This document shows positions 3,810-19,435 of a stretch of DNA of 64,000 bases, piece after piece. The position numbers and the translations under genes were made by a program. The notes under the pieces were generated by a model. It saw nothing but the letters and a program-made list of their open reading frames with translations, was not told the DNA's origin and searched no databases. The DNA is from Roseburia sp. 831b (GTDB lineage Bacteria; Bacillota; Clostridia; Lachnospirales; Lachnospiraceae), in NCBI RefSeq assembly GCF_001940165.2, contig NZ_CP135162.1, positions 2,592,001 to 2,656,000 on the forward strand. Direction: 5' to 3'. How positions within the stretch are numbered: the first letter of the stretch is position 1; every line of letters starts with the position of its first letter.

Positions 3810-3825
3810 AATTACAACTCCTTTT

Positions 3826-4002: not shown

Positions 4003-4013
4003 CCGTATACCTC

Positions 4014-5063
4014 CTAGTCAAACCATTTTTTTGTTTGATTAGCAATCTTTACAAGTAACAACATAACCGGAACTTCCGTAAGCACCCCAACTGTTGTTGC
4101 CAAAGCCGCAGAGGAAGTTGTTCCAAAAAGTGCAATCGCTACTGCAACTGCAAGTTCAAAGAAATTGGAAGCACCTATCATTCCTGCTGGTGCTGCCACA
4201 TCATGTGGCAATTTCAAAATCTTACAAGCCACATATGCAATCGCAAATATCAAACAGGTCTGTATGATAAGTGGCACAGCAATCAAAATAATATGAAGCG
4301 GATTTGACAATATTACCTCTGTCTGAGAAGCAAATATAATAATCAGGGTAAGTAATAACCCGACAGTCGTTGCATTGTCAAACTTATGGATAAAAGTATC
4401 CTCAAAATACTCCTGCCCCTTACTCTTAATAACACCCACTCTTGTTACGATTCCTCCAACCAAAGGAATTACAACAAACAGAAATACACTAAGGAACAAC
4501 GTGCTGTATGGCACTGTTACATTTGAAACACCAAGCAAAAACTTCACAATAGGTACAAATGCAACCAGAATAATCAAATCATTTGTTGCCACCTGTACCA
4601 CTGTATAAGCCGGATTGCCGTTAGTCAGTGTACTCCAGACAAACACCATAGCAGTACAGGGAGCTGCTCCTAAAAGCACTGCCCCTGCAAGATATTCCGT
4701 TGCCAGCTCCGGTGCAATCAGTCCTTTAAACACTGTAAACAGAAATACAGAAGCAATCGCATACATGGTAAATGGCTTAATCAACCAGTTTACAATCCAT
4801 GTAACAAACAATCCTTTCGGGTTTTTTCCTACCTGTTTTACGCTTTGAAAATCGACTTTCATCATCATTGGATAAATCATAACCCAAATTAGGATTGCAA
4901 TCGGTATGGATATTCCTGCAATTGAAAGTTCATCAAGGAACGCAGGGACAGCCGGAAGAAATTTTCCGATCAATACCCCTACTACCATACACAAAATTAC
5001 CCATACTGTAAGATACTTTTGAAAAATGCTGATTCCATTACTTTTTTTTACATTTTTACTCAT
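4014..5063 (-). CDS. acr3: ACR3-family arsenite efflux permease
   Basis: A 349-aa polytopic membrane protein with about ten hydrophobic segments. The Acr3 signature GAAPCTAMVFVWS (residues about 150-162) carries the conserved Cys needed for As(III) transport, and a second family block GASNFFELAVAVAIALFG lies near residue 300. It exports arsenite through the cytoplasmic membrane and can be energised by ArsA. The 5' end overlaps arsR by 8 bases, and the 58-aa ORF, arsD, arsA and arsC follow on the same strand. Earlier annotation styles call this arsB; the sequence is of the ACR3 type rather than the 12-helix ArsB type. Confidence 0.93.
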   Translation of the reverse strand: MSKNVKKSNGISIFQKYLTVWVILCMVVGVLIGKFLPAVPAFLDELSIAGISIPIAILIWVMIYPMMMKVDFQSVKQVGKNPKGLFVTWIVNWLIKPFTMYAIASVFLFTVFKGLIAPELATEYLAGAVLLGAAPCTAMVFVWSTLTNGNPAYTVVQVATNDLIILVAFVPIVKFLLGVSNVTVPYSTLFLSVFLFVVIPLVGGIVTRVGVIKSKGQEYFEDTFIHKFDNATTVGLLLTLIIIFASQTEVILSNPLHIILIAVPLIIQTCLIFAIAYVACKILKLPHDVAAPAGMIGASNFFELAVAVAIALFGTTSSAALATTVGVLTEVPVMLLLVKIANQTKKWFD

Positions 5064-5418
5064 GCTTACTCACTCCTTTACTATGATCACAGGAACATAG
5101 TTTTCTTGCTTTATTTTTGTCACTGGCTTCCCTATCGCTCTGAAAAGTTGGCAGTTTCTTCAATCCGTCCAAGAGATACAGCCACAATTCCTTATGCTCC
5201 TGCTGAAATGCCAAGCTAATGCGATAATACGTCCATAGTGCATCTTTCCTGCTTTCTACAATTCCACACCTTTTTAATACTGTCAGGTGTCGTGAAACAT
5301 TGGACTGTGTAAGATTAAGCGTTACCTCTATTTCACAAACACATAATTCTGTATCAATCAGGATTGAAAGAATCCTAAGCCTGCTTTCCTCTGAAAGTGC
5401 TTTAAATATCTCTGTCAA
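5056..5418 (-). CDS. arsR: ArsR/SmtB-family metalloregulator (copy 1)
   Basis: A 120-aa winged-helix repressor. The As(III)-binding motif ELCVCEIE lies at about residues 24-31, followed by LNLTQSNVSRHLTVLKRCGI (recognition helix) and the wing ESRKDALWTYYRI. The C-terminal tail has a further Cys pair (KLCSCDH). The start is TTG behind GGAGG. It is the first gene of the acr3 half-operon and should bind its own promoter, where the dyad at 5437-5458 lies, releasing DNA on As(III) or Sb(III). Confidence 0.9.
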   Translation of the reverse strand: MTEIFKALSEESRLRILSILIDTELCVCEIEVTLNLTQSNVSRHLTVLKRCGIVESRKDALWTYYRISLAFQQEHKELWLYLLDGLKKLPTFQSDREASDKNKARKLCSCDHSKGVSKHE

Positions 5419-5436
5419 AATATCCCTCCTTATTCG

Positions 5437-5458
5437 TATATGCTCATTTACTCATATA
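5437..5458. promoter_or_regulatory. Candidate ArsR operator dyad
   Basis: Inverted repeat TATATG (5437-5442) and CATATA (5453-5458) with a 10-bp spacer, about 20 bp before the arsR start and just after an intrinsic terminator. The position fits an ArsR operator. No clean -35 element was identified. Confidence 0.5.
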
Positions 5459-5466
5459 GTATGCTA

Positions 5467-5495
5467 AAAATGTGCCGTTTGTTACAAACGGCAAC
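5467..5495 (-). terminator. Terminator separating the two ars half-operons
   Basis: Perfect 9-bp stem TGCCGTTTG / CAAACGGCA with a 3-base loop, followed on the minus strand by CATTTTT. It lies after the Cys-rich thioredoxin-like gene and before arsR, so it splits the set into two units, or attenuates readthrough. Confidence 0.8.
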
Positions 5496-5510
5496 ACTTT
5501 TTATAAATTT

Positions 5511-5918
5511 TTAGTATCCAAGTTTATGCAATAATTTTTCTACATCTGCTACCTTAAGTACCTTTCCCATAGAAACAACTTTCTCATTGACAACCAAACC
5601 CGGCATACTCATAACACCATATCCCATGACTTTCTCCAGATCGGTAATGTATTCTACTTCTACAGACAGACCTGTATTTTTTACTGCTTCTTTTGTATTC
5701 TCGTATAGCTCATGACAGGACTTGCAACCGGAGCCAAGTACCTTGATACTTACCAAAGAATCTCCCACATCATTACAGCAACAGTTTTCCGTTTCTGCAT
5801 CCGCAGGGTTACTACCACAACAGCAACAGCTTTCTTCCTTTGTTTCCTCTACAGGTGCATTGCACGCACAGGCAGGCTCCTGTTCTTCTTTCTTCTTTCC
5901 AAAATTAAATAATCCCAT
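5511..5918 (-). CDS. Thioredoxin-fold redox protein with Cys-rich N-terminus
   Basis: A 135-aa protein. Residues about 55-135 match the small redox-active disulfide/thioredoxin-like family: VSIKVLGSGCKSCHELYENT with a CXXC, and a cis-Pro-like MSMPGLVVNE. Residues 1-50 are a charged linker with Cys clusters (CAC, SCCCCG, NCCCN) that look suited to metal or metalloid binding. The start follows GGAGG with good spacing. It is the last gene before the internal terminator in a block with CcdA-like and TlpA-like proteins. A role in thiol exchange linked to arsenic handling is inference. Confidence 0.78.
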   Translation of the reverse strand: MGLFNFGKKKEEQEPACACNAPVEETKEESCCCCGSNPADAETENCCCNDVGDSLVSIKVLGSGCKSCHELYENTKEAVKNTGLSVEVEYITDLEKVMGYGVMSMPGLVVNEKVVSMGKVLKVADVEKLLHKLGY

Positions 5919-5946
5919 TTTAAAGTCCTCCTAAATTATATTTTTA

Positions 5947-6639
5947 TTAAAATGCTAACCAGAACATATAAAGTCCAATCAGCAAAATGGTTGTTCCCAT
6001 TACAATCTTTAATGCGATTCCCACTTTGTTATACTTCTCATTACTACTGATTTTCTTAACAAAACTAATGGAAGTCCCTGCCACAATTACTAATGCACTG
6101 TGTCCGATAGAATATAGGAACATCAGCAAGATGCCCCAAATCAAGTTTCCTTTCCCCGCTACAATAGCAAGCAAAGCAATCAATACAGGTGTGGAACAAG
6201 GAGAAGAAAAAACACCACCCAATACTCCGGCAATAAATGCTCCAATAATCCCCTTTGCCTTACTCTTGGATAACAGATTTATGGAAGGAATAATCTGAAA
6301 TATCTCCCATGTCTGTAAAGCCATAAGTACCATCAATACACCAAGCACCAAATACCAAATCTGTGAAGAATTACCCATTAGTTTTCCTGCCGATGTAGCA
6401 ATCAGCCCCAAAGTAATAAATGTTACTGCTGTTCCCAATGCAAAAATTACAGAGTACCTAAAAGCTTTTTTTGTATTCTTCTCGCCGACACCTCCCACAT
6501 AGCCAATAATCAGAGGAATGTTGGAGAGGGCGCAAGGAGTAAATGATGTTAATACACCGGCTAAAAGTGCCAGAAGCGGGGCAATCCACATATTACTTTG
6601 GATAGACTGGGCAATCTGATTTAACCATGTGTCAACCAT
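5947..6639 (-). CDS. CcdA-like thiol-disulfide transmembrane electron carrier
   Basis: A 230-aa membrane protein with about six helices, typical of the CcdA/DsbD-beta family. Two Pro-Cys motifs on the first and fourth helices are present: FTPCALSNIPL and FSSPCSTPVL. These cysteines shuttle reducing equivalents from cytoplasmic thioredoxin to extracytoplasmic thiol proteins. Its ATG shares one base with the stop of the membrane-anchored thioredoxin gene upstream (TAATG), so the two are translationally coupled and probably form a donor-acceptor pair. Confidence 0.9.
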   Translation of the reverse strand: MVDTWLNQIAQSIQSNMWIAPLLALLAGVLTSFTPCALSNIPLIIGYVGGVGEKNTKKAFRYSVIFALGTAVTFITLGLIATSAGKLMGNSSQIWYLVLGVLMVLMALQTWEIFQIIPSINLLSKSKAKGIIGAFIAGVLGGVFSSPCSTPVLIALLAIVAGKGNLIWGILLMFLYSIGHSALVIVAGTSISFVKKISSNEKYNKVGIALKIVMGTTILLIGLYMFWLAF

Positions 6640-7211
6640 TATTCTACCCCCATTTCCTTTAATATCTTACGAAATTGTTCTTCCGTCAATCCCCCTTGAT
6701 GAACTGTAAAAACGTGTTCCCCACTTTTTCTGTCACTATACATCACAAATTCTATTTCCTGCTGTAATTCATCACTTGGAACAAATGGTGTCCCCTCTGC
6801 ATTGAATAACACTTGCGTTGGAATAACCTGAACTGGTACATTGCCCGCTGCATCCTGGTATTTCCATACATCTGTAAACTTGATAAACGCTTTTCCTGCA
6901 AATTCTTCATTCATTGCTTCCAACACAGGAGCCATCTCTTTACATGGAATGCAACTGTCAGAACCATAGTCTGCGATTATCGGCAGCCCATATTCTGATA
7001 AACTTGCAAAATCAATCTGCTCAGTTGCATTCAAGGAAAAATCTGCACTCTGCAATTCTTCCGGAATATCCTGCACCTGTTCATCACGATTTTGATTATC
7101 TACTATATTTTCTTTTTCTGATGAGTTTTTAATAACCCACATACCCACAACAACCGCAACGATCATAAGTGGTACAATTATTTTTAATATTAATTTCTTT
7201 TTTTCTTTCAC
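6639..7211 (-). CDS. Membrane-anchored TlpA-like thioredoxin
   Basis: About 190 aa. A Lys-rich start and one hydrophobic anchor (about residues 8-27, LKIIVPLMIVAVVVGMWVI) are followed by a linker and a thioredoxin domain. The active site CIPC is in GSDSCIPCKEMAP at about residue 87, and a cis-Pro loop VIPTQVLF follows. I prefer the GTG at 7211, because GGAGG sits 9 bases upstream and the GTG overlaps the previous stop by one base; the TTG two codons earlier is too close. The domain would face outside and receive electrons from the CcdA-like partner. Confidence 0.88.
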   Translation of the reverse strand: MKEKKKLILKIIVPLMIVAVVVGMWVIKNSSEKENIVDNQNRDEQVQDIPEELQSADFSLNATEQIDFASLSEYGLPIIADYGSDSCIPCKEMAPVLEAMNEEFAGKAFIKFTDVWKYQDAAGNVPVQVIPTQVLFNAEGTPFVPSDELQQEIEFVMYSDRKSGEHVFTVHQGGLTEEQFRKILKEMGVE

Positions 7212-7954
7212 TAACAACTACCTCCACAAGAGGTCGTGTTATCACACTTTTTTTCCTTGCCGTTATAAAAACGTTTGAGATTCTCAGGAAGTACATAAGT
7301 ATCACAGGAATAAACCTGCTGAAGATTCAGATTATCTAAAATTGCACTTGCCAGCATCTCTTTCGTTGGTACTGTATATGTCTTACCCTGATATTTAAAC
7401 ACCCGGCAATCTACATCTGTGCCAGCAATATCACTACAGCATCCACAATCTGACTCTAAAACACTTCCGAATATATCCTGTCCATTGACAAGAATTGTAG
7501 GGGAAGAAACGAAATGATACTGCTCCGCAATCTGTGCGGTTGTCATTTCATGCTTCTGATAATCAACTGTATATCCTGCCAGTTCTAATGCCGGACGGAG
7601 AACTTCCACCACTTCATCTAAAACAGTATCCGTACCGATACAGCGTTCACAGATATTCAAATCAAGATACAAATACTCAATACTCAATTTTTTGCAAGAT
7701 TCTGTATCCGACTCAGAAGAACAGCAACAGTTTGACGCCGCACTCATATTGCCAGTATCTCCAACATAAGAGATTGCGCCAGACGGACATTTTTTCTGAC
7801 AACCATGACAATGGTCTATACAGTTATCTGGATTAACTACCACTGGGACTGGGAATTTACTCTTGTCATAAACACCATGAGGACAAAAGTTCACACAAGT
7901 ACCACACTCTACACAAGTTAAAATATCTACAACAGGATACCATTTTTTTACCAT
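7211..7954 (-). CDS. Ferredoxin-DUF2703 fusion protein
   Basis: A 247-aa fusion. Residues 1-65 are a two-[4Fe-4S] ferredoxin (LTCVECGTCVNFCP and NCIDHCHGCQKKCP), clearly paralogous to the ferredoxin of the arsC fusion (both open with K/GWYPV-D). After a Cys-rich linker, the DUF2703 domain starts at LYLDLNICERCIGTDTVLDE and continues with a thioredoxin-like FVSSPTILVNG strand and SDCGCC. The end is Cys-rich (CGGSC). DUF2703 is often found near arsenic and mercury genes but has no settled function. It follows the permease by 11 bp and precedes tlpA with a one-base overlap. Confidence 0.82.
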   Translation of the reverse strand: MVKKWYPVVDILTCVECGTCVNFCPHGVYDKSKFPVPVVVNPDNCIDHCHGCQKKCPSGAISYVGDTGNMSAASNCCCSSESDTESCKKLSIEYLYLDLNICERCIGTDTVLDEVVEVLRPALELAGYTVDYQKHEMTTAQIAEQYHFVSSPTILVNGQDIFGSVLESDCGCCSDIAGTDVDCRVFKYQGKTYTVPTKEMLASAILDNLNLQQVYSCDTYVLPENLKRFYNGKEKKCDNTTSCGGSC

Positions 7955-7965
7955 ATTCTACCTAC

Positions 7966-8973
7966 CTAAATTAACAAATACTGAAACGCATTGAAGAAAT
8001 ATCCAACAATGATAATTCCTATCGTGCAGATTGCAATAAATATTCCTAACAGCTTCGGTTTTACTGCTTTCTTTAACATAATCATCGACGGCAGAGAAAG
8101 TGTGGTAACACCCATCATAAAGGAAAGTACAACACCTAACCTTGCACCTTTAGCAAGCAGAGCTTCCGCAATCGGAATACATCCAAATATATCTGCATAC
8201 ATCGGTACTCCGGCAATCGTGGCAATAATAACTCCAAATGGATTGCCTGTACCTAATACCTTGACAATGATCTCCTCCGGTATCCAATTATGAATAAATG
8301 CGCCAATGCCAACACCAACAAGTACATACGGAGCCACCTTTTTTGCTGTCGAAACAACTTGTTCCCACGCATATTTCAGACGATCTTTTTTTGTAAGTTC
8401 TTCCTGCGGAACATCTATGGATTTACCATTCCGAATAAATTCCTCTACCTGATTTTCCAAGTGCATTTTTTCGATTAAAGTTCCGCCAGCAACCGCAATA
8501 ACAAGACCGACAACCACATACACAATAGCTACTTTCCAACCAAAGATACTCATAAGGAGTACAAGCGAACCTAAATCCACCATAGGGGACGATATGAGGA
8601 ATGAAAACGTAACACCTAAAGGAAGTCCCGCACTGGTAAACCCTATGAATAATGGTATTGATGAACAGGAACAGAACGGAGTTACTGTTCCTAGAAGGGC
8701 AGCTATGATATTCGCCCATATTCCCTTAAATCTCCCTAATATTTTCTTGGTTCTCTCCGGTGGAAAATAACTTTGAATATAGGAAATCATCAAAATCAGG
8801 AAGCCAAGCAGTACCATGATTTTTATTGTATCATAGATAAAAAACTGTATGCCTCCACCCACCTTACCACTTGTGTCTAGTCCGGCTGCTTCCAGACCAC
8901 TGCCAATGAGTCTGTTCAGCCATTTCATTCCTAAAACTTCATTCTGGAAAAAATCCCAAATATTTTTTAACAT
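7966..8973 (-). CDS. Permease of the DUF318/ArsP-like family
   Basis: About 335 aa, with roughly eight membrane helices in two halves around a soluble loop (residues about 175-215). The family motif GTVTPFCSCSSIPLFIGF (Cys-Ser-Cys) is in the first half, and VPMYADIFGCIPIAEALL in the second. ArsP members export trivalent organoarsenicals; the motif alone does not prove the substrate. The start MLKNIWDFF (8973) has AAAGGAG upstream, unlike the earlier in-frame ATG. It directly follows arsR copy 2. Confidence 0.82.
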   Translation of the reverse strand: MLKNIWDFFQNEVLGMKWLNRLIGSGLEAAGLDTSGKVGGGIQFFIYDTIKIMVLLGFLILMISYIQSYFPPERTKKILGRFKGIWANIIAALLGTVTPFCSCSSIPLFIGFTSAGLPLGVTFSFLISSPMVDLGSLVLLMSIFGWKVAIVYVVVGLVIAVAGGTLIEKMHLENQVEEFIRNGKSIDVPQEELTKKDRLKYAWEQVVSTAKKVAPYVLVGVGIGAFIHNWIPEEIIVKVLGTGNPFGVIIATIAGVPMYADIFGCIPIAEALLAKGARLGVVLSFMMGVTTLSLPSMIMLKKAVKPKLLGIFIAICTIGIIIVGYFFNAFQYLLI

Positions 8974-9063
8974 GACACTTCTCCTTTCATTCATGTATCT
9001 AAATATTCAAATCTTTCTATATTTAATGCAAACAATTAGTCGTGCAAAAAAGTTCATTAAGAA

Positions 9064-9372
9064 CTACCCTTTACAACACGACTTTTCTTCTGTTCCACCC
9101 GAATGATTTGCAAAGTAATCTAAGCATTCTCTAATTTCTTCTAAACCTTTATCAGAAATAGAATAGTGCATCCACTTGCCTTCTTTTCTTCCAACGACAA
9201 CTCCTGAATCACATAATATTTTCATATGATGTGATAATGTCGGCTGGGTAATCTGCATTTCTTCCAAGATACTGCAAGCACACCTTTCTCCATCTCGTAG
9301 CAGCTCTAAAATCTGCAATCTATTCTCATCGCAAAATGCTTTAAACATTGCCGCCATTTTTTTATTATCCAT
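9064..9372 (-). CDS. ArsR/SmtB-family metalloregulator (copy 2)
   Basis: A 102-aa repressor with the ArsR metal motif ERCACSILEE at about residues 30-39, recognition helix TQPTLSHHMKIL, wing GRKEGKWMHYSI, and a C-terminal CysCys (KSCCKG). It differs from copy 1 and is closer to ArsR proteins with an ERCAC site. The start has GGAGG 7 bases upstream. It heads the operon running down to the Cys-rich thioredoxin-like gene. Its promoter at 9410-9437 is flanked by two identical operator-like repeats. Confidence 0.9.
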   Translation of the reverse strand: MDNKKMAAMFKAFCDENRLQILELLRDGERCACSILEEMQITQPTLSHHMKILCDSGVVVGRKEGKWMHYSISDKGLEEIRECLDYFANHSGGTEEKSCCKG

Positions 9373-9387
9373 AATTGCACCTCCATT

Positions 9388-9437
9388 CATTGAAGTTTAT
9401 CTATGTGTAATTATAACATCGCATTGAAGTTTGTCAA
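9388..9437 (-). promoter_or_regulatory. Strong sigma-A promoter with twin operator repeats for the upstream ars unit
   Basis: On the minus strand TTGACA (9437-9432), 16 bp, TATAAT (9415-9410). The repeat CATTGAAGTTT (plus-strand reading) occurs at 9388-9398 and 9422-9432, one copy at the -35 and the other downstream of the start point, as expected for an autoregulated ArsR promoter. Confidence 0.8.
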
Positions 9438-9479
9438 TATGTTTTTTTGCTTTTTCATCTCTAAAAACTAGATTAGCAA

Positions 9480-9600
9480 GCACTGCCCCTGTCATGACAC
9501 ATGGGCTGAAATTAACTTTTATGCCACAAGCATAACCCGTAAATTTCCATAGGGAAGTATCCCTAACCCTCTTTGAATTTTCTTTCAATTCCTGCCGGAA
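9480..9600. other. Candidate oriT of the Tn1549-like ICE
   Basis: The non-coding gap before mobC contains a cluster of dyads: the palindrome TGTCATGACA (9490-9499) inside GCCC...GGGC arms, TTATGC/GCATAA (9519-9535), and TAGGGA/TCCCTA (9550-9565). A relaxase-accessory pair begins just downstream. The nick site itself cannot be assigned. Confidence 0.55.
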
Positions 9601-9604
9601 GTTC

Positions 9605-9633
9605 TTGACCTTTCCTTTTGCTTTTGCTACAAT
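9605..9633 (+). promoter_or_regulatory. Promoter of mobC-relaxase
   Basis: TTGACC (9605-9610), 17 bp, TACAAT (9628-9633). A perfect dyad TTGGATA-ATTC-TATCCAA (9639-9656) lies at the expected transcription start and may be a MobC or regulator site. Confidence 0.65.
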
Positions 9634-9677
9634 TTTTCTTGGATAATTCTATCCAAAAATCGAATACACTTTGAAAC

Positions 9678-9719
9678 AAACTGTTGTAAAACATCGAACA
9701 TTTTACAGCAGTTTTTTTG
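9678..9719 (+). terminator. Leader hairpin/attenuator before mobC
   Basis: Arms at 9678-9691 and 9701-9714 pair over 14 bp with one mismatch and are followed by a T run. It lies between the promoter and mobC, so it would attenuate mob expression. Confidence 0.55.
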
Positions 9720-9746
9720 TACCCAAAAAAGGAAGGAGTTAAAGAA

Positions 9747-10088
9747 ATGGCAAACAGAAAACGCACTAATCCGGTGCAATTCTATCTCGATGATGACGAG
9801 CAGTATATCCTGGACGAGAAGTTCAGAGTATCAGGCATGAAAAGCAAGTCCGCCTTCTTACGAAAGCTCATTTTGTATGGCTATGTCTATGACGTGGATT
9901 ACAGTTATCTAAGAAATTATAATACGGAGCTTGGACGTATCAGCTCAAATTTGAACCAAATTGCCAAGCGGGTAAACAGCACCGGAAACATTTATCAGGA
10001 AGATATGGACGAAGTAAAGGAGTTGATGAATGAGGTATGGCGTACACAAAAATCCATGCTATCAAAGCAACCGTTGATAAAGCGATAG
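9747..10088 (+). CDS. mobC: MobC-like relaxosome accessory protein
   Basis: A 113-aa basic protein. The N-terminal ribbon-helix-helix part (NPVQFYLDDDEQYILDEKF, then KSKSAFLRKLILYG) and the MobC block GRISSNLNQIAKRVNSTGN are the family hallmarks. It binds oriT and helps the relaxase nick. The start has GGAAGGAG 8 bases upstream. Its 3' end overlaps the relaxase gene by 52 bases, so the two are coupled. Confidence 0.9.
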   Translation: MANRKRTNPVQFYLDDDEQYILDEKFRVSGMKSKSAFLRKLILYGYVYDVDYSYLRNYNTELGRISSNLNQIAKRVNSTGNIYQEDMDEVKELMNEVWRTQKSMLSKQPLIKR

Positions 10089-11398
10089 ACTACATCTGCA
10101 ACCCCGAAAAGACCGATGAAAAAATGTTCGTTTCTTCTTATGCCTGTTCTCCGGAAACCGCAGCTTATGACTTCAAATATACTCTCGACCACTGCCGGGA
10201 AAACAGTCCCAACAAAGCCTATCATCTGATACAGGCTTTTGCTCCGGGAGAGGTTGGTTTTGAAGAAGCACACCGCATTGGAAAGGAACTTGCAGATAAA
10301 CTTTTAGAGGGGAAATATTCGTATATTGTAACCACCCATATTGACAAAGGACACGTTCATAATCACATCATTTTTTGCGCTGCTGACAACATCGAACACA
10401 ACAAATATCACGACTGCAAACAGTCCTATTACCACATCCGGAATCTGAGTGATGAGCTGTGCAAGGAACACAATCTTTCCGTCATCATTCCGGGTGCGCA
10501 GCGTGGCAAAAAATACAAAGAATGGCAGTCCGACCAGAACGGTTCTGCATGGAAAACGCAGATCAGAAAGGACATCAATTTCTGCATCAAGTCGGCTTCC
10601 ACTTACGAAGAATTTCTGCTTCTGATGAGAGCCAAAGGGTATGAAATCAAAGGGGAAACTTTTGAAGAAGGAGCTGCCAAATACATCTCATTCCGCCCTC
10701 TGGATAAAGAGCGTTTTGTGCGTGGCAGTGCGAAGTCTTTGGGTAAAGAATACACAAAGGAACGTATCAGGGAACGCATCGAAAGGAAACGGGAACGAAA
10801 GGCAGTGATCCAGAAAAAAGACTACTCTGCCCGCAGGCTCATTGACACCTCTGACGAAAAATTTCAGAACAGTCCGGGACTTCAAAGGTGGGCTGCCATT
10901 GAGAATTTAAAGACTGCCGCACAGAGCTATAATGAAGTCGGCTCCCTTGCAGAACTGGAACACAAAATTGCGGTGAAAACCGAAGCCGGAAAGTCTGCAA
11001 AACAGAGCGTGGTAGAACTGGAACACCGTATCAAAGACCTTGCGGAAATCATCAAATATGCACAGCAGTACAAAGACAACCGCTCCTATCATATTGGCTA
11101 CAAAAAAGCCAAGAACCCTGACGCATATTTCCGCAAATTTGAAAGTCAGATTATTCTTTATGGCGGTGCCAGACGTATGCTTGAACAGGCGGGCATAAAC
11201 TTAAAGGGCTTGAATGTCGATAAATTAAAAGCTGAGTACCAGGAACTGATGAAGCAGAAAAGCGAGCTGACTTTCACCTATAAAGATTGTGAAAAGGAAG
11301 TGCGTGAGCTGAAACGGAAACAGGAAAATCTCAATCAGTATCTTGGGAAAAATATGCCCACTACTCAAGACATAAAGAACAGGCAACAATCTCTATAA
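10037..11398 (+). CDS. ICE relaxase (MobA/VirD2-type mobilization nuclease)
   Basis: A 453-aa relaxase. The candidate catalytic Tyr19 lies in AIDYICNPEKT; the metal-binding histidine motif HVHNH is at residues 106-110 within DKGHVHNHIIFC. After residue about 250 the protein is a basic helical region with coiled-coil potential, used for oriT and coupling-protein contacts in the family. It matches relaxases of Tn1549-like conjugative transposons. It overlaps mobC and ends at an AT-rich cargo boundary. Confidence 0.92.
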   Translation: MAYTKIHAIKATVDKAIDYICNPEKTDEKMFVSSYACSPETAAYDFKYTLDHCRENSPNKAYHLIQAFAPGEVGFEEAHRIGKELADKLLEGKYSYIVTTHIDKGHVHNHIIFCAADNIEHNKYHDCKQSYYHIRNLSDELCKEHNLSVIIPGAQRGKKYKEWQSDQNGSAWKTQIRKDINFCIKSASTYEEFLLLMRAKGYEIKGETFEEGAAKYISFRPLDKERFVRGSAKSLGKEYTKERIRERIERKRERKAVIQKKDYSARRLIDTSDEKFQNSPGLQRWAAIENLKTAAQSYNEVGSLAELEHKIAVKTEAGKSAKQSVVELEHRIKDLAEIIKYAQQYKDNRSYHIGYKKAKNPDAYFRKFESQIILYGGARRMLEQAGINLKGLNVDKLKAEYQELMKQKSELTFTYKDCEKEVRELKRKQENLNQYLGKNMPTTQDIKNRQQSL

Positions 11399-11468
11399 AT
11401 TTGGTAGTATGTTAACCCATTTTATAGTATAATCAATTCACTACTTAACAAAGGAGCAATCTATTCAT

Positions 11469-12290
11469 ATGCTTACATTCATAGACGAAAGTGGATACCC
11501 TCGCCCTACAGATTCAACCAAGAATCCTATCCTGCTTGGTGTCTGTATCCATGAGAATGATATTAAACCGATCACAAATCAGATATACAAATTAAAAGAT
11601 TCCATTTACGGAAAACAGGACGAAATAAAGTCTACAAAACTAATTCGTGAAGCAACTATTACTAAGAATCGTACAAATAATAAAGCGTATGTTGAAGGCA
11701 TGGTGGACATCATTACCTCTTATGACGCTGCTATTTTTGCCATAATTATGGACAAGCCAGATGAACCAATTATTGTTCCAGATAATCATCTTCCAAAGCA
11801 GTATTACCTCCTTTTAAAAAAGGTTGAATTTTACTGTAACCATCATCACTATGGCAAGGCAATGATGATATTTGACGAGGTACACGAAGACGCTGATCGG
11901 AAAATTGCCGAAGCAATTACTGGTTTTTTATTCAAAACTAAATTCGGGCGTTCTTTCCATCACATATTAGAAATGCCCTTGTTTGTCAGCTCCGCTGTAA
12001 CTCCTGCAGTACAGTTCGCTGATATATTTGCTGGTATCGTGAGACATTATTATGAAAATGAACTTGACCAAATAGAACCGGAAACAGAATTTCAGGAATG
12101 GCTTGTAGAGCTTTTTACCAAATTACATAATCTTACAGAAAATAACTTCATCCCTAAATCACATTATCTGGAGTATGGATTTCAGAAAATGGGTAAAAAC
12201 TTCTCCTATCCTGTAAGTGAAAAATTTACTACTTCCGATAATGATGAAAACCTTTTAGGTGAAGATATTTCTAATGATTTATCTGAATAA
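11469..12290 (+). CDS. DUF3800 domain protein
   Basis: A 273-aa protein matching DUF3800: the N-terminal FIDESGYP motif (acidic residues on the first strand), an internal MMIFDEVHEDAD, and the C-terminal QFADIFAGIVRHYYE. These acidic residues resemble an RNase H-like metal site. Some members lie in phage-defence or abortive-infection loci. AAAGGAG sits before the start, with a TATAAT-like box at about 11428. It lies in the ICE cargo pocket, beside the small RNA and the minus-strand two-gene unit. The function is not established. Confidence 0.8.
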   Translation: MLTFIDESGYPRPTDSTKNPILLGVCIHENDIKPITNQIYKLKDSIYGKQDEIKSTKLIREATITKNRTNNKAYVEGMVDIITSYDAAIFAIIMDKPDEPIIVPDNHLPKQYYLLLKKVEFYCNHHHYGKAMMIFDEVHEDADRKIAEAITGFLFKTKFGRSFHHILEMPLFVSSAVTPAVQFADIFAGIVRHYYENELDQIEPETEFQEWLVELFTKLHNLTENNFIPKSHYLEYGFQKMGKNFSYPVSEKFTTSDNDENLLGEDISNDLSE

Positions 12291-12298
12291 TTTTTTGT

Positions 12299-12326
12299 TT
12301 GACTTCATACAAATATGGTGTATAAT
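12299..12326 (+). promoter_or_regulatory. Promoter of the small RNA candidate
   Basis: TTGACT (12299-12304), 16 bp, TATAAT (12321-12326), starting 9 bases after the DUF3800 stop codon. No start codon with a ribosome-binding site follows before the terminator. Confidence 0.7.
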
Positions 12327-12332
12327 ATTATT

Positions 12333-12425
12333 AGAGTCATATGTTGTTCCGTCCTGGAGCTGCGTAGGACTCGTAATATTAACAAAAGTGTCGCACTTGC
12401 AGTTTAGCAAGTGCGATTTTCTTTT
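12333..12425 (+). ncRNA. Candidate small non-coding RNA (about 90 nt)
   Basis: A self-contained transcription unit: near-consensus promoter, about 58 bases of structured sequence, and a strong intrinsic terminator. The body contains GTCCT/AGGAC (5-bp stem, 10-base loop) nested in GAGTC/GACTC, so a hairpin is likely. No credible ORF is present. It lies between DUF3800 (same strand) and the convergent two-gene unit, overlapping neither coding region. The family is unknown. Confidence 0.62.
12391..12425 (+). terminator. Intrinsic terminator of the small RNA
   Basis: Perfect 10-bp stem TCGCACTTGC / GCAAGTGCGA (12391-12400, 12407-12416), 6-base loop, then TTTTCTTTT. The T tract exists only on the plus strand, so it belongs to the small RNA or DUF3800 transcript. 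Confidence 0.9.
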
Positions 12426-12431
12426 ATAAAA

Positions 12432-13928
12432 TTAAAACATCTTTTTTATATTTTGCATAAATAAATCTAATTCCTTTCCTATAACCTGATAAGTTGGATT
12501 ACTACTCAAATATTCAACTATAAGCAATGCTGCAATTAAAAAAACAATCCAAACACCTAAATATAATTTTTCTGATTTGCTTATGGTTTTTTTCATTTTA
12601 TTCAGACCTTCATCGTTACCAAATGTCTCTAACAAATCATCTTCCGTCAAAATATCCTTATAATTCAATTTCAATTGTTCGTAGCTTTCATATACCTTTT
12701 CTATTTCATAACGTGATTGAAAATAGCATATAAATAAGTATACAAATGAACCTGCCAAAACACATTCAACCAATACTGTAATTTCTCTTGTAAAAAGATT
12801 ATTCAATGGTTGATCGGAAACGATATTTGCCAATATAACAGAAAAAATAAAACCAAAAATAGCAATAAGATTTGATTTAAATTTATCTAATAAACTTGTC
12901 GCATATTCCCCTGTTTTCGATACTATATCACTTATGAACTCAGCCACCTTATTCTTTAACTCCAAATAGTCTTTTACGTTATCTTTCAAATACATATTAT
13001 AATTAGACTGTATTGAAGCCATAACTTTATCATCAATTTCTATTATAGAAACATACTTGCAATGTAAACTAATAACATTTCTAGCTATTATCGCCTTGTC
13101 TATTGGACTACCATCTGTATATATCCAATTATATATTCTATATAATACTTTATTGTCCGGAATATTATTTATATCGCAACAATATTCCATTGTACGCTGT
13201 CCATTTATGATGCCTTTTAACTGCCTTCCATTTATTGATGAAGAAGTGGCAATAAAACTAATAGATAATAGCATTGTAATTTTCTGAAATAACTCAGTTA
13301 GTGGATTACTTTCATAATTAATTGTTATTTTAAAATCATCTGGTAGTACTTCATAGGTGTCAAAATTATAAAAATATGAAACTTCTTTGCAACTCTCCAT
13401 TCTCTGTTTTCTATTGAATTCTGAATTTGTAATCTGGCTCCTATATGGTACAAAAAACATTGTTTTTGTAGCAAACATTGTCATCGGACTGTAAACATCA
13501 AAAACCAAAAACGTTGATACCTGACTCAATAGACCAGAAAAAGCTATCATAACTTGTTCTATTGATAACATTAAAATATCTTTTACAAACTCATCATACG
13601 AATAAATAGAAAAATGATTTTCCTCTACTTTTTTATCAATGCGCAACTTAACATTAATAGTTTCATCATCAAGTGTATTTTTTAAAAATGTTTTATACTC
13701 TTCCTCTCCTTCTGTTTTTGAGGAAGAAACCTCAAAAATCCTCTCATTTTCATCTTGTAAAGTTATCTTAATATTATCCCTTTTGGGAATAAAATTGATT
13801 ATATTAAAAAAATAACTATAATCTGGCGCATTATTTAAATCAAAATTAAAAGAGGCTTCATACACTTTCATTCTTTCGGAAACAATTATATCTCTTATTT
13901 CTGCCAAACTAAGTAACTCTGCAAGCAT
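12432..13928 (-). CDS. Membrane protein of unknown function, partner of the NdpA-like gene
   Basis: A 498-aa protein in an AT-rich gene. The N-terminal about 345 residues look soluble, with acidic and aromatic stretches and one moderately hydrophobic segment around MIAFSGLLSQVSTFLVF. The C-terminal part has two membrane helices (LIAIFGFIFSVILANIV and CVLAGSFVYLFICYF), a cytosolic-looking helical region, then another helix (GVWIVFLIAALLIVEYL). AAAGGAGG lies 9 bases before the start, 24 bp after the NdpA-like stop. I do not recognise a family. The arrangement suggests a membrane-anchored effector or sensor working with the upstream gene. Confidence 0.7.
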   Translation of the reverse strand: MLAELLSLAEIRDIIVSERMKVYEASFNFDLNNAPDYSYFFNIINFIPKRDNIKITLQDENERIFEVSSSKTEGEEEYKTFLKNTLDDETINVKLRIDKKVEENHFSIYSYDEFVKDILMLSIEQVMIAFSGLLSQVSTFLVFDVYSPMTMFATKTMFFVPYRSQITNSEFNRKQRMESCKEVSYFYNFDTYEVLPDDFKITINYESNPLTELFQKITMLLSISFIATSSSINGRQLKGIINGQRTMEYCCDINNIPDNKVLYRIYNWIYTDGSPIDKAIIARNVISLHCKYVSIIEIDDKVMASIQSNYNMYLKDNVKDYLELKNKVAEFISDIVSKTGEYATSLLDKFKSNLIAIFGFIFSVILANIVSDQPLNNLFTREITVLVECVLAGSFVYLFICYFQSRYEIEKVYESYEQLKLNYKDILTEDDLLETFGNDEGLNKMKKTISKSEKLYLGVWIVFLIAALLIVEYLSSNPTYQVIGKELDLFMQNIKKMF

Positions 13929-13952
13929 ACTTCTACACCTCCTTTTATTTTA

Positions 13953-14987
13953 TCATTCATCTGAAAAAAGTTTATATGTCAGATCATTATCCGTTTTAAT
14001 CCTTATATATCTATTTCCATCTGGTTCCCTATATGCCTTAATTGTATCGCCAAAATCATCTATAGCATCCGTTATTTTTAATTGAACTCCTTGGCAGACA
14101 TCATACACTTTTCTAATACGAGCATTGATAACTGATGATACTGTATTAAACTGTTTATCAAATTTATGTTTTTCTGGTAATTCTCTTATCTTTTCAATTA
14201 CTTTGTCCATCTTTTCTTGATCTAATTCTACCGGATGATAACTCTCCAATGTATTTTGTATCATGGTATCATAATCTATATAATCATTGGACTTAAAATA
14301 TGCTATCAAAGAATTTCTGAGTAATGTATGATCTCTAGGCGCAATATTCTTTACATTTCTATTTAATGCACTATCTATTGCACGAAATGCTTTGTCTGTG
14401 TTTGTTTCATCACTCACAACTTGGTCTAACTCTAAAAAATTATCATACCAATATTTTGCAACTGTATTAGAATAAACCTTTGCCGAATAACTATCAGCGT
14501 TTAAATTATCAATTTCAAAAATACAAGACTTCCAAAGTTTTTTCATATCTTTTGAAAAACCAGATTTAAAACTAAAATCAGAATCATCCACAAAATCTGT
14601 ATGTTCTACTTTTGCAAGCAGATACGTATACTTGTCCTTGTCCTCATCGTATAATAAAGCTTGTATTAAGCTGCCTTTTTGTACATTTGTATTCATATGC
14701 ACAACAGTAGTTTGTGCCTCTCTTTCTTTTAAAAGTAATCTCTGTGCAATAAAATCAATTTTTCCTGTCACATATTCCTCGTCAATTTGATTTCTGACTA
14801 TATCTAAAATACAACTTATGACTTCAGTATTAGCTGAACGAGTTTTATATTCACGAATAGAAGTATTACCATTTATATAAGTAATCAATTGACTTACATA
14901 TTCAGAAAATGTCTCTGGAGTTTCTCTAACATATACAGCATTATTCTCATAATCAATAATTCTAATGGTTTTAATTACTATTTCCAT
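13953..14987 (-). CDS. NdpA/37-kDa nucleoid-associated-like protein
   Basis: A 344-aa soluble acidic protein. Its layout resembles nucleoid-associated protein NdpA/YejK (about 335 aa): an N-terminal region, a central strand set KGSLIQALLYDEDKDKYTYL then LLAKVEHTDFVDD, the helix block SNTVAKYWYDNFLELDQVV, and a C-terminal beta part VQLKITDAIDDFGDTI with NRYIRIKTD. Conservation is visible only at pattern level, so this is a remote match. The start has GGAGGG at proper spacing and a promoter at 15017-15044. It is the first gene of a two-gene operon in the ICE cargo pocket. NdpA-like and DUF4868 (KwaB) proteins occur in phage-defence pairs with membrane partners, which motivates the defence hypothesis. 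Confidence 0.6.
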   Translation of the reverse strand: MEIVIKTIRIIDYENNAVYVRETPETFSEYVSQLITYINGNTSIREYKTRSANTEVISCILDIVRNQIDEEYVTGKIDFIAQRLLLKEREAQTTVVHMNTNVQKGSLIQALLYDEDKDKYTYLLAKVEHTDFVDDSDFSFKSGFSKDMKKLWKSCIFEIDNLNADSYSAKVYSNTVAKYWYDNFLELDQVVSDETNTDKAFRAIDSALNRNVKNIAPRDHTLLRNSLIAYFKSNDYIDYDTMIQNTLESYHPVELDQEKMDKVIEKIRELPEKHKFDKQFNTVSSVINARIRKVYDVCQGVQLKITDAIDDFGDTIKAYREPDGNRYIRIKTDNDLTYKLFSDE

Positions 14988-15016
14988 GTGTAACCCTCCT
15001 ACTGATATTTTTTATC

Positions 15017-15044
15017 ATTATATCACATATTATTAAAGTCACAA
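15017..15044 (-). promoter_or_regulatory. Promoter of the NdpA-like/membrane protein operon
   Basis: On the minus strand TTGTGA (15044-15039), 16 bp, TATAAT (15022-15017). The RNA start falls about 25 bases before the NdpA-like ATG. The neighbouring stretch 15061-15129 holds only a 16-codon open frame with no ribosome-binding site, possibly a gene remnant. Confidence 0.65.
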
Positions 15045-15129
15045 ACATAATCTTAATGATACATTTTAGTAGCTCTCAATATGTTCTGCAATAAAGGCAG
15101 CCAGCAATACCGCCAACTGCCTATCCTAC

Positions 15130-15342
15130 CTACATTTCTTCTGCCGCTTCCAAAGATACTTCTGCAAATTCCTCATCGGTCATGCTCCGGAGTTTTCCCA
15201 AGACCTGCTCAGCAAGCTCCACCATATCGCTGTCCTTTATGTGCGGCATTACCTGTCTGATGTTCTCAAGCATCTGCGTCCTGTCCTGTGTCTCAAATAC
15301 ACACATGAAATTGATTTCTTCTACTGTAAATTTACTCATCAT
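15130..15342 (-). CDS. Transposon-transfer assisting protein (TTRAP family)
   Basis: A 70-aa protein fitting TTRAP (PF14203): KFTVEEINFMCVFETQDRTQ then an amphipathic helix region, ELAEQVLGKL and MTDEEFAEVSLE. TTRAP proteins are small accessory proteins of Tn1549-like ICEs with no proven mechanism. I chose the ATGATG start at 15342 with GGGAG upstream; the longer open frame in this region is a shadow of the large polyvalent gene. It follows that gene's stop by one base. Confidence 0.8.
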   Translation of the reverse strand: MMSKFTVEEINFMCVFETQDRTQMLENIRQVMPHIKDSDMVELAEQVLGKLRSMTDEEFAEVSLEAAEEM

Positions 15343-15343
15343 T

Positions 15344-18300
15344 TTACATCTCCCTCTGTGATTTTTTATCTTTCTCCGGCGAAGTATGTTCTGCCCTATC
15401 CCGCTGTTCGATAACAGCCTTTTTCTCCGCCAGCTTCTCCTTAATGGATATTCTGCCTTTGGACTGTTCCTGTTCTTTCTTCTCCGCTCCGTTATTGAGA
15501 ACATTGTCAATCTGATTATAATTCTGCTCGGTCAGTTCCTCCACCTTTGCGAGTGGCTTGTATTCTGCCAGCTTGTCAAGCAGCTCCTTTGCCCTTCTCG
15601 CAGTCTGAACCGCTTCACTGTCATCAATCTCCACACCCTGTCCGAAAATGTCTGTAATGCCCTCTCTGACGCCTTCAGAAATGACCGCATTGAGAAAGTC
15701 ATTCAGATACCCAGTATTTCCGCTTCTGATGTCCTCAGTGATGTTGGCAACCTGTGCTTCCCTGTTATCAACCGTATCCTGATACTGATAGGTGTCATAA
15801 TCATAAGAAAACTGGTCTATCTCCGTAGCAAGGATAGCCGCCTGCCACTTCTCCAGCGAACCACGCACTTCAATATCCGGCAACTTGTCAATCAGCTCCT
15901 CTATTACCTCGATTGCTTTCGGATCGTCTGTTATGTCCGGTACATAATCCAAGACCTCCAGGTCAATGACCTTGCCGGAGAGAATATCCATTTCCACGTC
16001 CTCATAACGCTCAGTGCCCTCAGTGTGTATATTAATGCCGATACTCGTAATCCCATTCATGCGCTCTGGTGGTATGCTTTTCCACACAGTGATTGCTTCC
16101 TCCACACTTGCGATATTCTCATGGAACTCTCCCAGACTGTGAAATTCGCCGCACTCTGCAACTGTTAAGGTAACGGTTTTCTCCGGTGTGGCTTCCACCG
16201 CAGACGCTTTCTGCATTGCCTGTTTCTCTGCAAGATAGCTCTCCACTCCCGGAAGATAGGTTGCAAGTGTTCCGGTCTTACCCTCTGTGATAGGATTGAT
16301 GTCAACCTTCACACCGCCAATCATAAGACCGTCCTCGTTAAAAGCATTGAACAGATCATCTTCATGCTCCCTGCCCTTATACTCCACAACCACATCCAGA
16401 TCGGAGCCTGCTTTCTCCAGTCCTCTGCATCTGCTTCCGGACACCACCACATCCACAAGCTCAACATCTATCTTATACTCGTCAATCTTGGATTGCAGAT
16501 ATGCCCAAACAGTCTGCTCTATATCGTCCTGTGTCTGTCCGTTGATTCCGTTAAATAATTCCTCTGTCTTTGCCTTGAAATCAGCAACAACACTGTCTGC
16601 TTCCGGTACTTCCGCCTGGATACGCTCATTCAACTGTTCACGCTCCACCGCTTCTGTTTTCTCCATAAGCTCCTCATAGTCCACCGGAATACGCTTATCC
16701 TGTTCTGACAGTCCAAAGTCCTCCAGAACGTCCTTTAACGCCGCATGAATGGAAATATCAGGATTGTCATACACGCCACCGTCAATCAGCTTGTAATCCG
16801 CATCAAAAACGGAATAATCATAGCCCTCCGTACAGGTCTGTATGCTGACATATTTATCTTTTATGGAAAATGCCATCTGATCCGGCTCCTTTACCTCAAA
16901 ATACGGATTGTCCCACTCCGTAATCGGTACATTTTCCTCGATGTGCTTCTGGTTGGCAGTAGGCATTAACTTTTCCATCTTGCCCTGTTCATAGAGCGTA
17001 TCGAACCGGCTCATATAAAGGGAAATATCATCAAGACCGCCCTGTTTCAACTGATGTTCAAAACGCCGCTTCACAAAGTCTTTCACTTCCTCCGGTGTCA
17101 TATCCCGGTGGACTCTTACCTTGTCGATGCCGATGCTGTCACTCAACGTCTGCAAATCGTCCATGAAGTGCTTACTTTCCTTTGCTTCGCTGCTGTGGAT
17201 AAAATCAAGGGACAAGACATTTTCGTTATTCCTTACATGGATCACATCAAATTCAATGCCATGCACACTGACACCAAAGGTTGTCCTTGCCTTGTCATCG
17301 CAGTACTGTGCATCTTTGCCACGATAAGCCTGAAATGCTTCCATTGCTTCAGAAATGCTGTCAAAACGCTCCAGCTTGCTCCTTTCTGAGCTGTTCTCTG
17401 CCCATGTGCTTAAATCCGCAATGACATAGTAGGATACCTTGTCATTTTCAATGTCCATGTGCTTCTGAAGCTGTCTTGCTTCCATGATGCGCTCAAGCTG
17501 TGTCCTTCCGTTTACCATGTAGGAACCGATGTTATTTTCTTTATTGAAAGGCATATTCGCCATTTCCCGCTCTGCTTCATAAAGGGCAGCCGCAGCTTCC
17601 TCATAGGTATCGTAATGCACTCCTGCAGGTGTGATGTCCTTGATCTGGTTTTGTAAATGCAAAAGTCTGAAATCCCCATCCGCATACGGATCGTCAATAG
17701 CAAAATAATTCTGTTCCAAGTCAAGCGTACTGACCTCACGCCATTCGTTGTAATTGACAAGGAACACTTCATTTTCCCTGCCCTGTTCATCCTGTGCGTG
17801 TTCCTGTGCAATCTCCGAAAGGATCTCCGCCGTTTCATCAATAACCGAAGCCTGTTCTTTTGTATGCTCTACCATAAGCTCCCTTGTAAACTCCGGCACT
17901 TCCCTGTAACCAAAGGAATCCACATAATGGCTTGTGTTCTCTCCGTTCTGATGAAGCACCACCACATCGCTGACAGAAAGGGAATGTCCTCGAAAATCTG
18001 CCGGATGAGCTATATTAAAGCGGGTGTAAATATCTTCAAGGCTTGTGCCTTCCTCTAACGGTGCGATATAAAGCAGTTCATAATTCTCCTTTGTGACCGC
18101 AATGCCCTTGCTTTCAAGATAGTCCATTCCCATAAAGCGAATATTCCTTGCTTCCTCTGTATCTTTGAGCTGATAAATGCCAAATCTGTCCTCACTGCCA
18201 AATAGAAGCTGTGCTTCCCTGTTTGCAGGGCTTTCCTTTCGTTCTTTCATATCCACAAGCTCCTCTGTATCGGTATTGTAGCGGACATCAAGGTGATATT

Positions 18301-19435
18301 CTCCAAATTCTTTTGTATCTTCATTGGCAATCTCAGTAGTCCATGCCCCTTTACTCTCCAGATATGCTTGAATACTCAGCTTATCGTCCTCACTCATGGC
18401 TGAAAGAATGTCCATAAGTTCCTGTCTGTCCATGCCCACAACACTCACAAGGCTGTATTGTGTCAGATCATCATTCTGTATCAGAAGAATACTCTCCTTA
18501 TTCTGCTCCTGCTCCACTGCCCTGTCCTTCTGTAACTCTGCTAACCTGTCCTCAATGCCTGTGATCAGCTCCGAAGCGGTCTTTCGTATGGTATCAAGGG
18601 AAGATTTCAGTTCTTTCATATCCCGGTCACTGCTCCATCCGGCAATATACCCAAAGGAATAGTCCGATGTATCAATACCGAAATGCTGACATACCGTATA
18701 AGCAACGCTCTCTGCTTCCACTTCCTTTGTATTGCGGTCTTTGTCTAAAACCTTATCTATATCCTGATTCCGTTCCCAGTCATGGAGCATTGCGTGTGCC
18801 ACCTCATGGATAGCGGTTTTTACGGTCTGACTCTGGCTCATCCCCTCCTGTATGGCAATCCGGTGGTCGGTGGTATGGAAATACCCCTTCACATCCTCGT
18901 CTATATCTTCATAGGTAACAGGAACCGGGGCAACCTCCGTAAGTGCCTGCATAAAGTCCTCATAGTCCTCCACGCTTCCTGAAAGCTCATTTACCCCTAT
19001 GTCCGGCAGTTCCTTTCCGTCCGTCTGTGACACATCAAATACCGGAACCACACGAAAGGCGGGTATCTTAATCTCCACTTCCTCCGTAATGGGCATTCCG
19101 TTCTTATCAAGCATAATCTCTCCCGTTACCGGATTAAGTTTCTCCTGTTCTTCCTTAATCTTGTACGGTGCTGGAGCAAGGATACGGATACCCTTTTCCC
19201 CTTTCTTAACGTGCCTGTCAAAATTTTTCTGCCAAGCCTTGAATCCAGCCACTAACGTAGCGTCAGGCTTTTGCATTGCGATTAACATGGTATTGTTAAA
19301 GCTGTAATTATGAAATTTTGACATAGTATTCAGATAGGTCTTGTACTTCTCGCTTTCAAAAAGCTCCTTGATTCCCTGCTCCAGCTTCTCCGTTATTTCC
19401 TGTACTTTCTGTTTTTCTGTTTTAGCGCCTGCCAT
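15344..19435 (-). CDS. Large polyvalent protein: ArdC-like antirestriction/metallopeptidase, YodL, nucleotidyltransferase
   Basis: A 1363-aa multidomain ICE protein. Residues about 1-135 match the ArdC-like N-terminal ssDNA-binding domain. Residues about 150-290 are a zincin-like metallopeptidase with HEVAH at 210-214 and a later EAESVAYTVC glutamate. A YodL-type domain follows (about 410-525, ending ADFRGHSLSVSDVVVL). Around residue 1000 a minimal nucleotidyltransferase signature appears: GSRCRGLEKAGSDLDVVVEY (GS and DxD). The C-terminus is helical and Lys/Glu-rich. Such proteins are thought to be transferred or made early to protect incoming DNA. The start has AAGGAGG. DUF6674 lies upstream. 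Confidence 0.85.
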   Translation of the reverse strand: MAGAKTEKQKVQEITEKLEQGIKELFESEKYKTYLNTMSKFHNYSFNNTMLIAMQKPDATLVAGFKAWQKNFDRHVKKGEKGIRILAPAPYKIKEEQEKLNPVTGEIMLDKNGMPITEEVEIKIPAFRVVPVFDVSQTDGKELPDIGVNELSGSVEDYEDFMQALTEVAPVPVTYEDIDEDVKGYFHTTDHRIAIQEGMSQSQTVKTAIHEVAHAMLHDWERNQDIDKVLDKDRNTKEVEAESVAYTVCQHFGIDTSDYSFGYIAGWSSDRDMKELKSSLDTIRKTASELITGIEDRLAELQKDRAVEQEQNKESILLIQNDDLTQYSLVSVVGMDRQELMDILSAMSEDDKLSIQAYLESKGAWTTEIANEDTKEFGEYHLDVRYNTDTEELVDMKERKESPANREAQLLFGSEDRFGIYQLKDTEEARNIRFMGMDYLESKGIAVTKENYELLYIAPLEEGTSLEDIYTRFNIAHPADFRGHSLSVSDVVVLHQNGENTSHYVDSFGYREVPEFTRELMVEHTKEQASVIDETAEILSEIAQEHAQDEQGRENEVFLVNYNEWREVSTLDLEQNYFAIDDPYADGDFRLLHLQNQIKDITPAGVHYDTYEEAAAALYEAEREMANMPFNKENNIGSYMVNGRTQLERIMEARQLQKHMDIENDKVSYYVIADLSTWAENSSERSKLERFDSISEAMEAFQAYRGKDAQYCDDKARTTFGVSVHGIEFDVIHVRNNENVLSLDFIHSSEAKESKHFMDDLQTLSDSIGIDKVRVHRDMTPEEVKDFVKRRFEHQLKQGGLDDISLYMSRFDTLYEQGKMEKLMPTANQKHIEENVPITEWDNPYFEVKEPDQMAFSIKDKYVSIQTCTEGYDYSVFDADYKLIDGGVYDNPDISIHAALKDVLEDFGLSEQDKRIPVDYEELMEKTEAVEREQLNERIQAEVPEADSVVADFKAKTEELFNGINGQTQDDIEQTVWAYLQSKIDEYKIDVELVDVVVSGSRCRGLEKAGSDLDVVVEYKGREHEDDLFNAFNEDGLMIGGVKVDINPITEGKTGTLATYLPGVESYLAEKQAMQKASAVEATPEKTVTLTVAECGEFHSLGEFHENIASVEEAITVWKSIPPERMNGITSIGINIHTEGTERYEDVEMDILSGKVIDLEVLDYVPDITDDPKAIEVIEELIDKLPDIEVRGSLEKWQAAILATEIDQFSYDYDTYQYQDTVDNREAQVANITEDIRSGNTGYLNDFLNAVISEGVREGITDIFGQGVEIDDSEAVQTARRAKELLDKLAEYKPLAKVEELTEQNYNQIDNVLNNGAEKKEQEQSKGRISIKEKLAEKKAVIEQRDRAEHTSPEKDKKSQREM

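Follow-up and report, generated by a model that had tools for sequence, protein, structure and literature searches.

An NdpA/YejK-like protein gene and a membrane-protein gene as a probable two-gene defense operon in an exchangeable cargo slot of a Roseburia mobile element, next to a separate DUF3800-small RNA module

Two described phage defense systems were used as the closest points of comparison for the locus reported here. Kiwa combines a membrane tetramer with DNA-binding dimers (PMC12904381), and a YejK-domain system reported with DefensePredictor was validated and protected Escherichia coli against phage (Science 2026, PMC13092281). For DUF3800 proteins, a predicted RNase H fold and an earlier association with noncoding RNA were described (PMC10910872). 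We analyzed a 64,000-nt window of the 3.37-Mb genome of the gut bacterium Roseburia sp. 831b (contig NZ_CP135162.1, positions 2,592,001 to 2,656,000; coordinates below are those of the window unless preceded by the L number of another locus). A first-pass annotation made from the letters alone had proposed that an NdpA-like protein and a membrane protein, together with a DUF3800 gene and a small RNA, form an undescribed defense-type cargo of an integrative and conjugative element (ICE). We estimate at roughly 0.68 the probability that the two protein genes (12432-14987), referred to here as the pair, constitute a two-gene operon for defense, that is, for exclusion of phage or foreign DNA, that travels as replaceable cargo of an ICE slot.

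The first gene of the pair (13953..14987, minus strand) encodes a protein of 344 amino acids that family and profile comparisons relate, remotely but over its full length, to NdpA/YejK (NA37). The layout recognized in the first-pass annotation found no backing in the window protein itself, which had no match to PF04245 (NA37) and did not reach the curated cut-off, but it was backed by its relatives and by profile comparison. Of 18 family members in an alignment, two matched PF04245 at E ≤ 0.1 (best value 3.9e-8), and relatives at 60% identity either match PF04245 or bear the name nucleoid-associated protein (P0119, P0118). When the extended 344-aa family was aligned by hhalign with a profile of E. 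coli YejK and eight Firmicute NA37 proteins, a Prob of 88.6 and an E value of 2.6e-6 were obtained over 297 columns, nearly the whole length, versus a maximum Prob of 8.1 and an E value of 0.0042 in 30 column-shuffled controls. Alignments with single NA37 sequences were weak (Prob 0.1-4.2), with the exception of that of locus L112 (Prob 50.2), where an NA37 gene precedes a divergent partner gene. Unlike in this arrangement, no partner-type neighbor is annotated beside the chromosomal yejK in E. coli K-12, and the window protein lies below Pfam detection. Sub-threshold matches to CARF, Stap_Strp_tox_C, Brp/Blh, LolA, and similar families were taken as chance; in PADLOC 2023 the protein yielded only CARF3 (E=0.018).

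The second gene (12432..13928, minus strand) encodes a 498-aa protein that on sequence evidence belongs to an unnamed family. As the first-pass annotation had stated, it matched nothing known: Pfam and NCBIfam gave nothing above cut-off, PADLOC gave no match, and there was none among PDB sequences, a search that returned nothing usable for either protein of the pair. The predicted combination of one soluble protein and one protein with C-terminal membrane helices was likewise confirmed, as a soluble N-terminal part of ~345 residues is followed by three hydrophobic segments on the Kyte-Doolittle scale (352-370, 383-401, and 457-475), which represent putative membrane helices. At least three such segments were present in 44 of 46 aligned rows, an alignment that includes a few copies of the window; L005 and L033 show two, as does the partner of L112 outside the 46 rows. 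In this alignment, 59 positions are conserved at ≥90%, and 43 of them precede residue 345. Among the candidates scored, 460 relatives were found at E ≤ 0.001.

The likeness to Kiwa lies in the composition of two genes, one for a membrane protein and one for a soluble protein of DNA-binding type. In Kiwa, the presumed KwaA, identified by its position beside a Firmicute KwaB, has 188 aa and is encoded first, whereas here the partner has 498 aa and is encoded second. PF16162 (KwaB), which we take to be DUF4868, had no match in the Roseburia genome, and PADLOC gave no KwaB match. Homology to Kiwa was rejected, as the NdpA-like profile showed no similarity to the single Firmicute KwaB compared (hhalign Prob 0.1, E 0.57). 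Kiwa is therefore not supported as a relative, and any correspondence, including a membrane-anchored complex acting on injected DNA, is one of analogy only. The DefensePredictor system shares with the pair the YejK/NdpA nucleoid-associated domain; it originates from E. coli, and the likeness concerns the domain (PMC13092281). DS-6 of the same study was considered as the YejK system and rejected, since DS-6 is a HipA system.

The two genes lie on the same strand and are separated by 24 bp, the tight coupling read from the open reading frames (ORFs) in the first-pass annotation. We collected 29 loci with the partner gene, two of which (L032 and L118) end at the sequence edge, leaving 27 with upstream DNA. 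In 25 of these, the window included, the partner gene is immediately preceded by an NdpA-like gene in the same orientation (incomplete in L016 and L034). In L112 an NA37 gene (2.2e-41) directly precedes the divergent partner gene (E 7e-13), and in L119, which carries a fragment of the partner, no NdpA-like gene was found upstream. The gap within the pair measures 5 to 39 bp except in L026 (229 bp) and L028 (overlap), and the pairing persists at 24-30% partner identity and in Photobacterium. These results show that the 344-aa and 498-aa genes are kept together as a single operon across different elements. The promoter proposed for the pair (15017..15044, minus strand; TTGTGA-16-TATAAT with TG, an extended -10, 10/12 consensus) exists as a site, but the region contains 45 comparable sites (25.3 expected by shuffling), so that a single one does not rise above chance and is weak as sole evidence.

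Hosts of the pair include Clostridium, Holdemanella, Ruminococcus, Acetoanaerobium, Paenibacillus, and, on a replicon (L038), Photobacterium; in Vibrio parahaemolyticus a relative was found as protein only. The pair is rare and patchily distributed: it occurs in 4 of 299 genomes of the family and in 3 of 279 of the phylum (one a fragment), the Roseburia genome being included in each. It is also present in four IMG/VR viral contigs (L030, L031, L033, and L034); the pair proteins had no match in phage records, and a plasmid collection searched by DNA gave none. In L030, L031, and L033 the pair stands, as seen by eye, shortly before terminase-like genes, a usual place of prophage cargo. In L025 (9845-13746) and L027 (9845-13786) it is immediately followed by a helicase ORF whose start is close to the Walker A stretch (GTGKT), with recombinase genes upstream in L025, and these two cases possibly represent an insertion site inside a helicase gene.

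In the window, the order of genes is a MobC/MobA-VirD2 relaxase pair (9717-11398, plus strand), the DUF3800 gene, the small RNA, the two-gene operon in convergent orientation, and TTRAP/ArdC-like genes (15130-19435, minus strand). Family matches confirmed the borders named in the first-pass annotation, with the MobA/VirD2-type relaxase on the left (10037..11398, plus strand; PF03432, 2.1e-34) and the TTRAP gene on the right (15130..15510, minus strand; PF14203, 7e-23), beyond which an ArdC-like protein of 1363 aa with ArdcN, YodL, and LPD16 is encoded (15344-19435, minus strand). The AT-rich pocket was likewise evident from the G+C content, which is 45% at 10-11 kb, 38% at 11-12 kb with the DUF3800 gene, 28-30% at 12-15 kb, and 44-47% at 15-19 kb. 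That it is an ICE cargo slot was supported by sister elements, whose identity to the window is interrupted there. In L088, 93-96% DNA identity ends at 11346 and resumes at 15139, and in L107, whose slot is empty, the match runs up to 11343 and again from 15132. As identity to both breaks off and resumes at these edges, the exchanged cargo corresponds to about 11347..15138.

Seven further slots could be read, whose link to this type of ICE is either a closely related relaxase (80-94% identity) or the DUF3800-small RNA module. Two were empty, with relaxase and TTRAP within about 0.7 kb (L092) and 0.3 kb (L107) of each other, and each of the five filled slots contained at least one known or candidate defense family. 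L039 carries DRT3 (Drt3b 3e-130, Drt3a 1.4e-37), AbiH (7e-21), and GmrSD_N (3e-34), besides AlbA_2 and DUF2971/PDC-S31; L090 an AbiD/Abi_2 protein (AbiD 5e-26); L091 the YhcG nuclease PDC-S02 (4e-132); L088 an insertion sequence, an unassigned 300-aa ORF, an AAA ATPase (HEC-01A 4e-26/AriA-like), and a DUF4276-like protein below cut-off; and L050, with a DUF3800 remnant, the small RNA, and TTRAP, an Abi_2 protein (7e-7) matched by Pfam only, as PADLOC gave none at E ≤ 0.001. No TTRAP was seen in the L039 stretch and no relaxase in that of L050. The close relaxases of L089 and L093 lie at contig ends, where the slots are unreadable, and in 13 more distant relaxase regions (L094-L106) three ORFs were scanned for families (two of L097 and one of L096). 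A relaxase search in viral contigs gave no confirmed locus.

L039 is a human-gut scaffold labelled phage, which shares the relaxase end, the DUF3800 protein (96% identity), and the small RNA with the window; its DNA match to the window ends at 12420. Its positions 1962-10626 form a compact defense island (AlbA_2, DUF2971, DRT3, GmrSD_N, and AbiH), and the scaffold resembles a fragment of an ICE. Relative to the window, ~70 bp are missing from it between short CACTACT repeats on either side of the relaxase end (window 11358-11445 versus L039:990-1036), probably due to a small deletion.

From this record of two empty slots and five with defense families, defense cargo is the best reading for the pair, and because sister elements keep known antivirus genes in the same spot, the pair is probably an uncatalogued antiphage system. 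This reading is also favored by the conserved operon, by the patchy occurrence of the pair, by copies adjoining MobC/relaxase genes (L051 and L053) or on viral contigs, and by the phage protection that a YejK-domain system gave E. coli (PMC13092281). In such a system the NdpA-like protein would bind DNA and the partner would hold it at the membrane via its soluble N-terminal part; upon phage entry, the complex would capture and silence the incoming DNA, following the logic of Kiwa with unrelated proteins, or alternatively would signal to the membrane helices and cause cell arrest. Several points weigh against this assignment. The slot sample is small (n=7), the PDC and HEC labels of PADLOC denote candidates only and AAA matches are promiscuous, and slots of more distant relaxases contain other cargo too, as in L096 with, by eye, a two-component system and an ABC transporter. 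Outside the slot, few PADLOC matches were obtained (103 neighbors of 19 loci, without a control), several of them to generic helicases or kinases; defense-type company is thus supported for the slot, and enrichment in defense islands elsewhere is weak and was not used as evidence. The counted pair loci are partly near relatives (L013/L014, L030-L032, and L033/L034), PADLOC 2023 has no model for either pair protein, and an NdpA relative, NdpA2 of PAPI-1, acts on ICE transfer (PMC8565334). With PADLOC, the pair of L038 gave no match at E ≤ 0.1 and that of L112 none at E ≤ 0.001. The lack of a PADLOC model and the absence of any description of the pair in open-licence literature on NdpA/YejK and phage defense (titles and abstract starts) agree with its having been called undescribed, but this is uncertain, and its novelty limited, because a YejK-domain defense system has already been validated (PMC13092281).

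Tight coupling, constant gene order, and membrane helices would also be compatible with a toxin-antitoxin or abortive-infection pair, in which the membrane protein kills and the NdpA-like protein restrains it until it is titrated by phage DNA. This possibility, which overlaps with the defense reading, is held tentatively, and the partner is large, with a soluble part whose conservation (the 43 of 59 positions mentioned above) exceeds the need of a small pore toxin. A role in regulating or protecting the mobile element that carries the pair, with the NdpA-like protein silencing or activating ICE genes and the partner acting in entry exclusion or conjugation, is unlikely. The reported role of NdpA2 in control of PAPI-1 transfer fits this idea, as do three copies directly beside relaxase genes (the window and, adjoining MobC/relaxase genes, L051 and L053) and a fourth about 4 kb from one (L021). 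However, the pair is absent from close sister ICEs, whose slots are empty or hold defense genes, and no relative of the window relaxase was found at most pair loci examined, a search that covered this relaxase type. That the pair consists of ordinary hitch-hiking genes without a role in defense, as the lack of a named family for the partner might suggest, is improbable in view of the constant pairing across phyla and the company found in the slot.

The remaining cargo comprises a DUF3800 gene (11469..12290, plus strand; 273 aa; PF12686, E=4.2e-11, 44.2 bits with a curated cut-off of 21) and, downstream of it, a small structured RNA of ~93 nt (12333..12425, plus strand), whose start is deduced from its promoter (12299..12326, plus strand; TTGACT-16-TATAAT, 11/12 consensus). 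A terminator hairpin at 12390..12417, readable on both strands, ends the RNA and perhaps also the convergent pair. The small RNA of the first-pass annotation thus received stronger support than originally claimed, from the promoter, the terminator, and a folding z score of -8.0, with 0 of 200 shuffles folding as well. Its near-invariant 48-nt core (12333-12380) is identical at 45-48 positions in 8 aligned loci, the window included; the -10 element is conserved across the 8 loci and the -35 element in most, with the exception of L056. The identity of the DUF3800 coding DNA to the window is 75.7% in L047, 79.9% in L048, 81.8% in L049, and 92.1% in L039, which singles out the RNA as far better conserved than the adjacent gene. 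The gene looks open in L047 and L039, whereas L048 has a version short at the N-terminus, L049 an interrupted one, and L050 a remnant. One compensatory pair was found, in the terminator, and some pairs are broken in the lower stem of L008; covariation in the main hairpin is uninformative because the hairpin is almost invariant. Read from the sequence, the loop GUCCU has a complement, AGGAC, in the 3′ arm, which makes an alternative pairing possible.

Among the 299 family genomes, five contain DUF3800 relatives and seven contain the RNA. All five DUF3800 genomes bear the RNA just downstream of the gene, and in G042 (L056) and G111 (L057) the surrounding stretch has the RNA without DUF3800. These two copies, with a nearly identical core, lie beside rpsB-tsf (L056:1622-1724) and in a conjugation region (L057:1289-1384), as judged by eye. 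A search for the RNA's DNA in 299 phylum genomes returned only its own locus and one terminator-only match, and the core pattern was absent from viral contigs. Rfam gave nothing in the window at the gathering threshold and nothing over the small RNA even at E ≤ 10; snoRNA matches at E > 1 were taken as chance. The Rfam DUF3800 RNAs (e.g., DUF3800-I and DUF3800-IX; PMC11701678) resemble it in being structured RNAs beside a DUF3800 gene, but the window RNA has no covariance-model match and also occurs without a nearby DUF3800 gene.

Neither pair protein was found near the DUF3800-small RNA module or the solo RNA in any of seven stretches (L039, L047-L050, L056, and L057), some of them short, and window-type DUF3800 was found in none of the 31 other pair loci scanned, again including short stretches and with L003/L051, L004/L053, and L005/L052 representing the same places twice. 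As each recurs without the other, DUF3800 and the ~93-nt RNA are, by these comparisons, a separate, independent module occupying the same slot, and their proposed membership in the system of the pair was not supported. That all four parts form a single RNA-containing defense system, as their adjacency in one slot and the shared terminator hairpin might suggest, is very improbable given this lack of mutual co-occurrence (0/7 and 0/31).

A more far-reaching proposal, which we regard as doubtful, is that the slot contains two independent undescribed immune modules: a membrane-tethered, DNA-trapping nucleoid-type protein that would follow the Kiwa strategy with unrelated proteins from Firmicutes to Vibrionales, and a DUF3800 protein of RNase H fold that would be licensed or guided by the near-invariant 93-nt RNA, with the terminator marking the edge of cargo exchange. 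Should the defense assignment of the pair hold, it would define a two-gene family of membrane-plus-nucleoid-protein defense across at least two phyla, hint at the role of NdpA relatives on mobile elements, and make the relaxase-to-TTRAP slot of these ICEs a named place in which cargo of unclear role could be tested for defense function. On the far side of the related relaxase in L096, the N-terminal region of a Dsr2-like SIR2 protein (6e-60) was observed at L096:14416-15001, cut by the end of the stretch.

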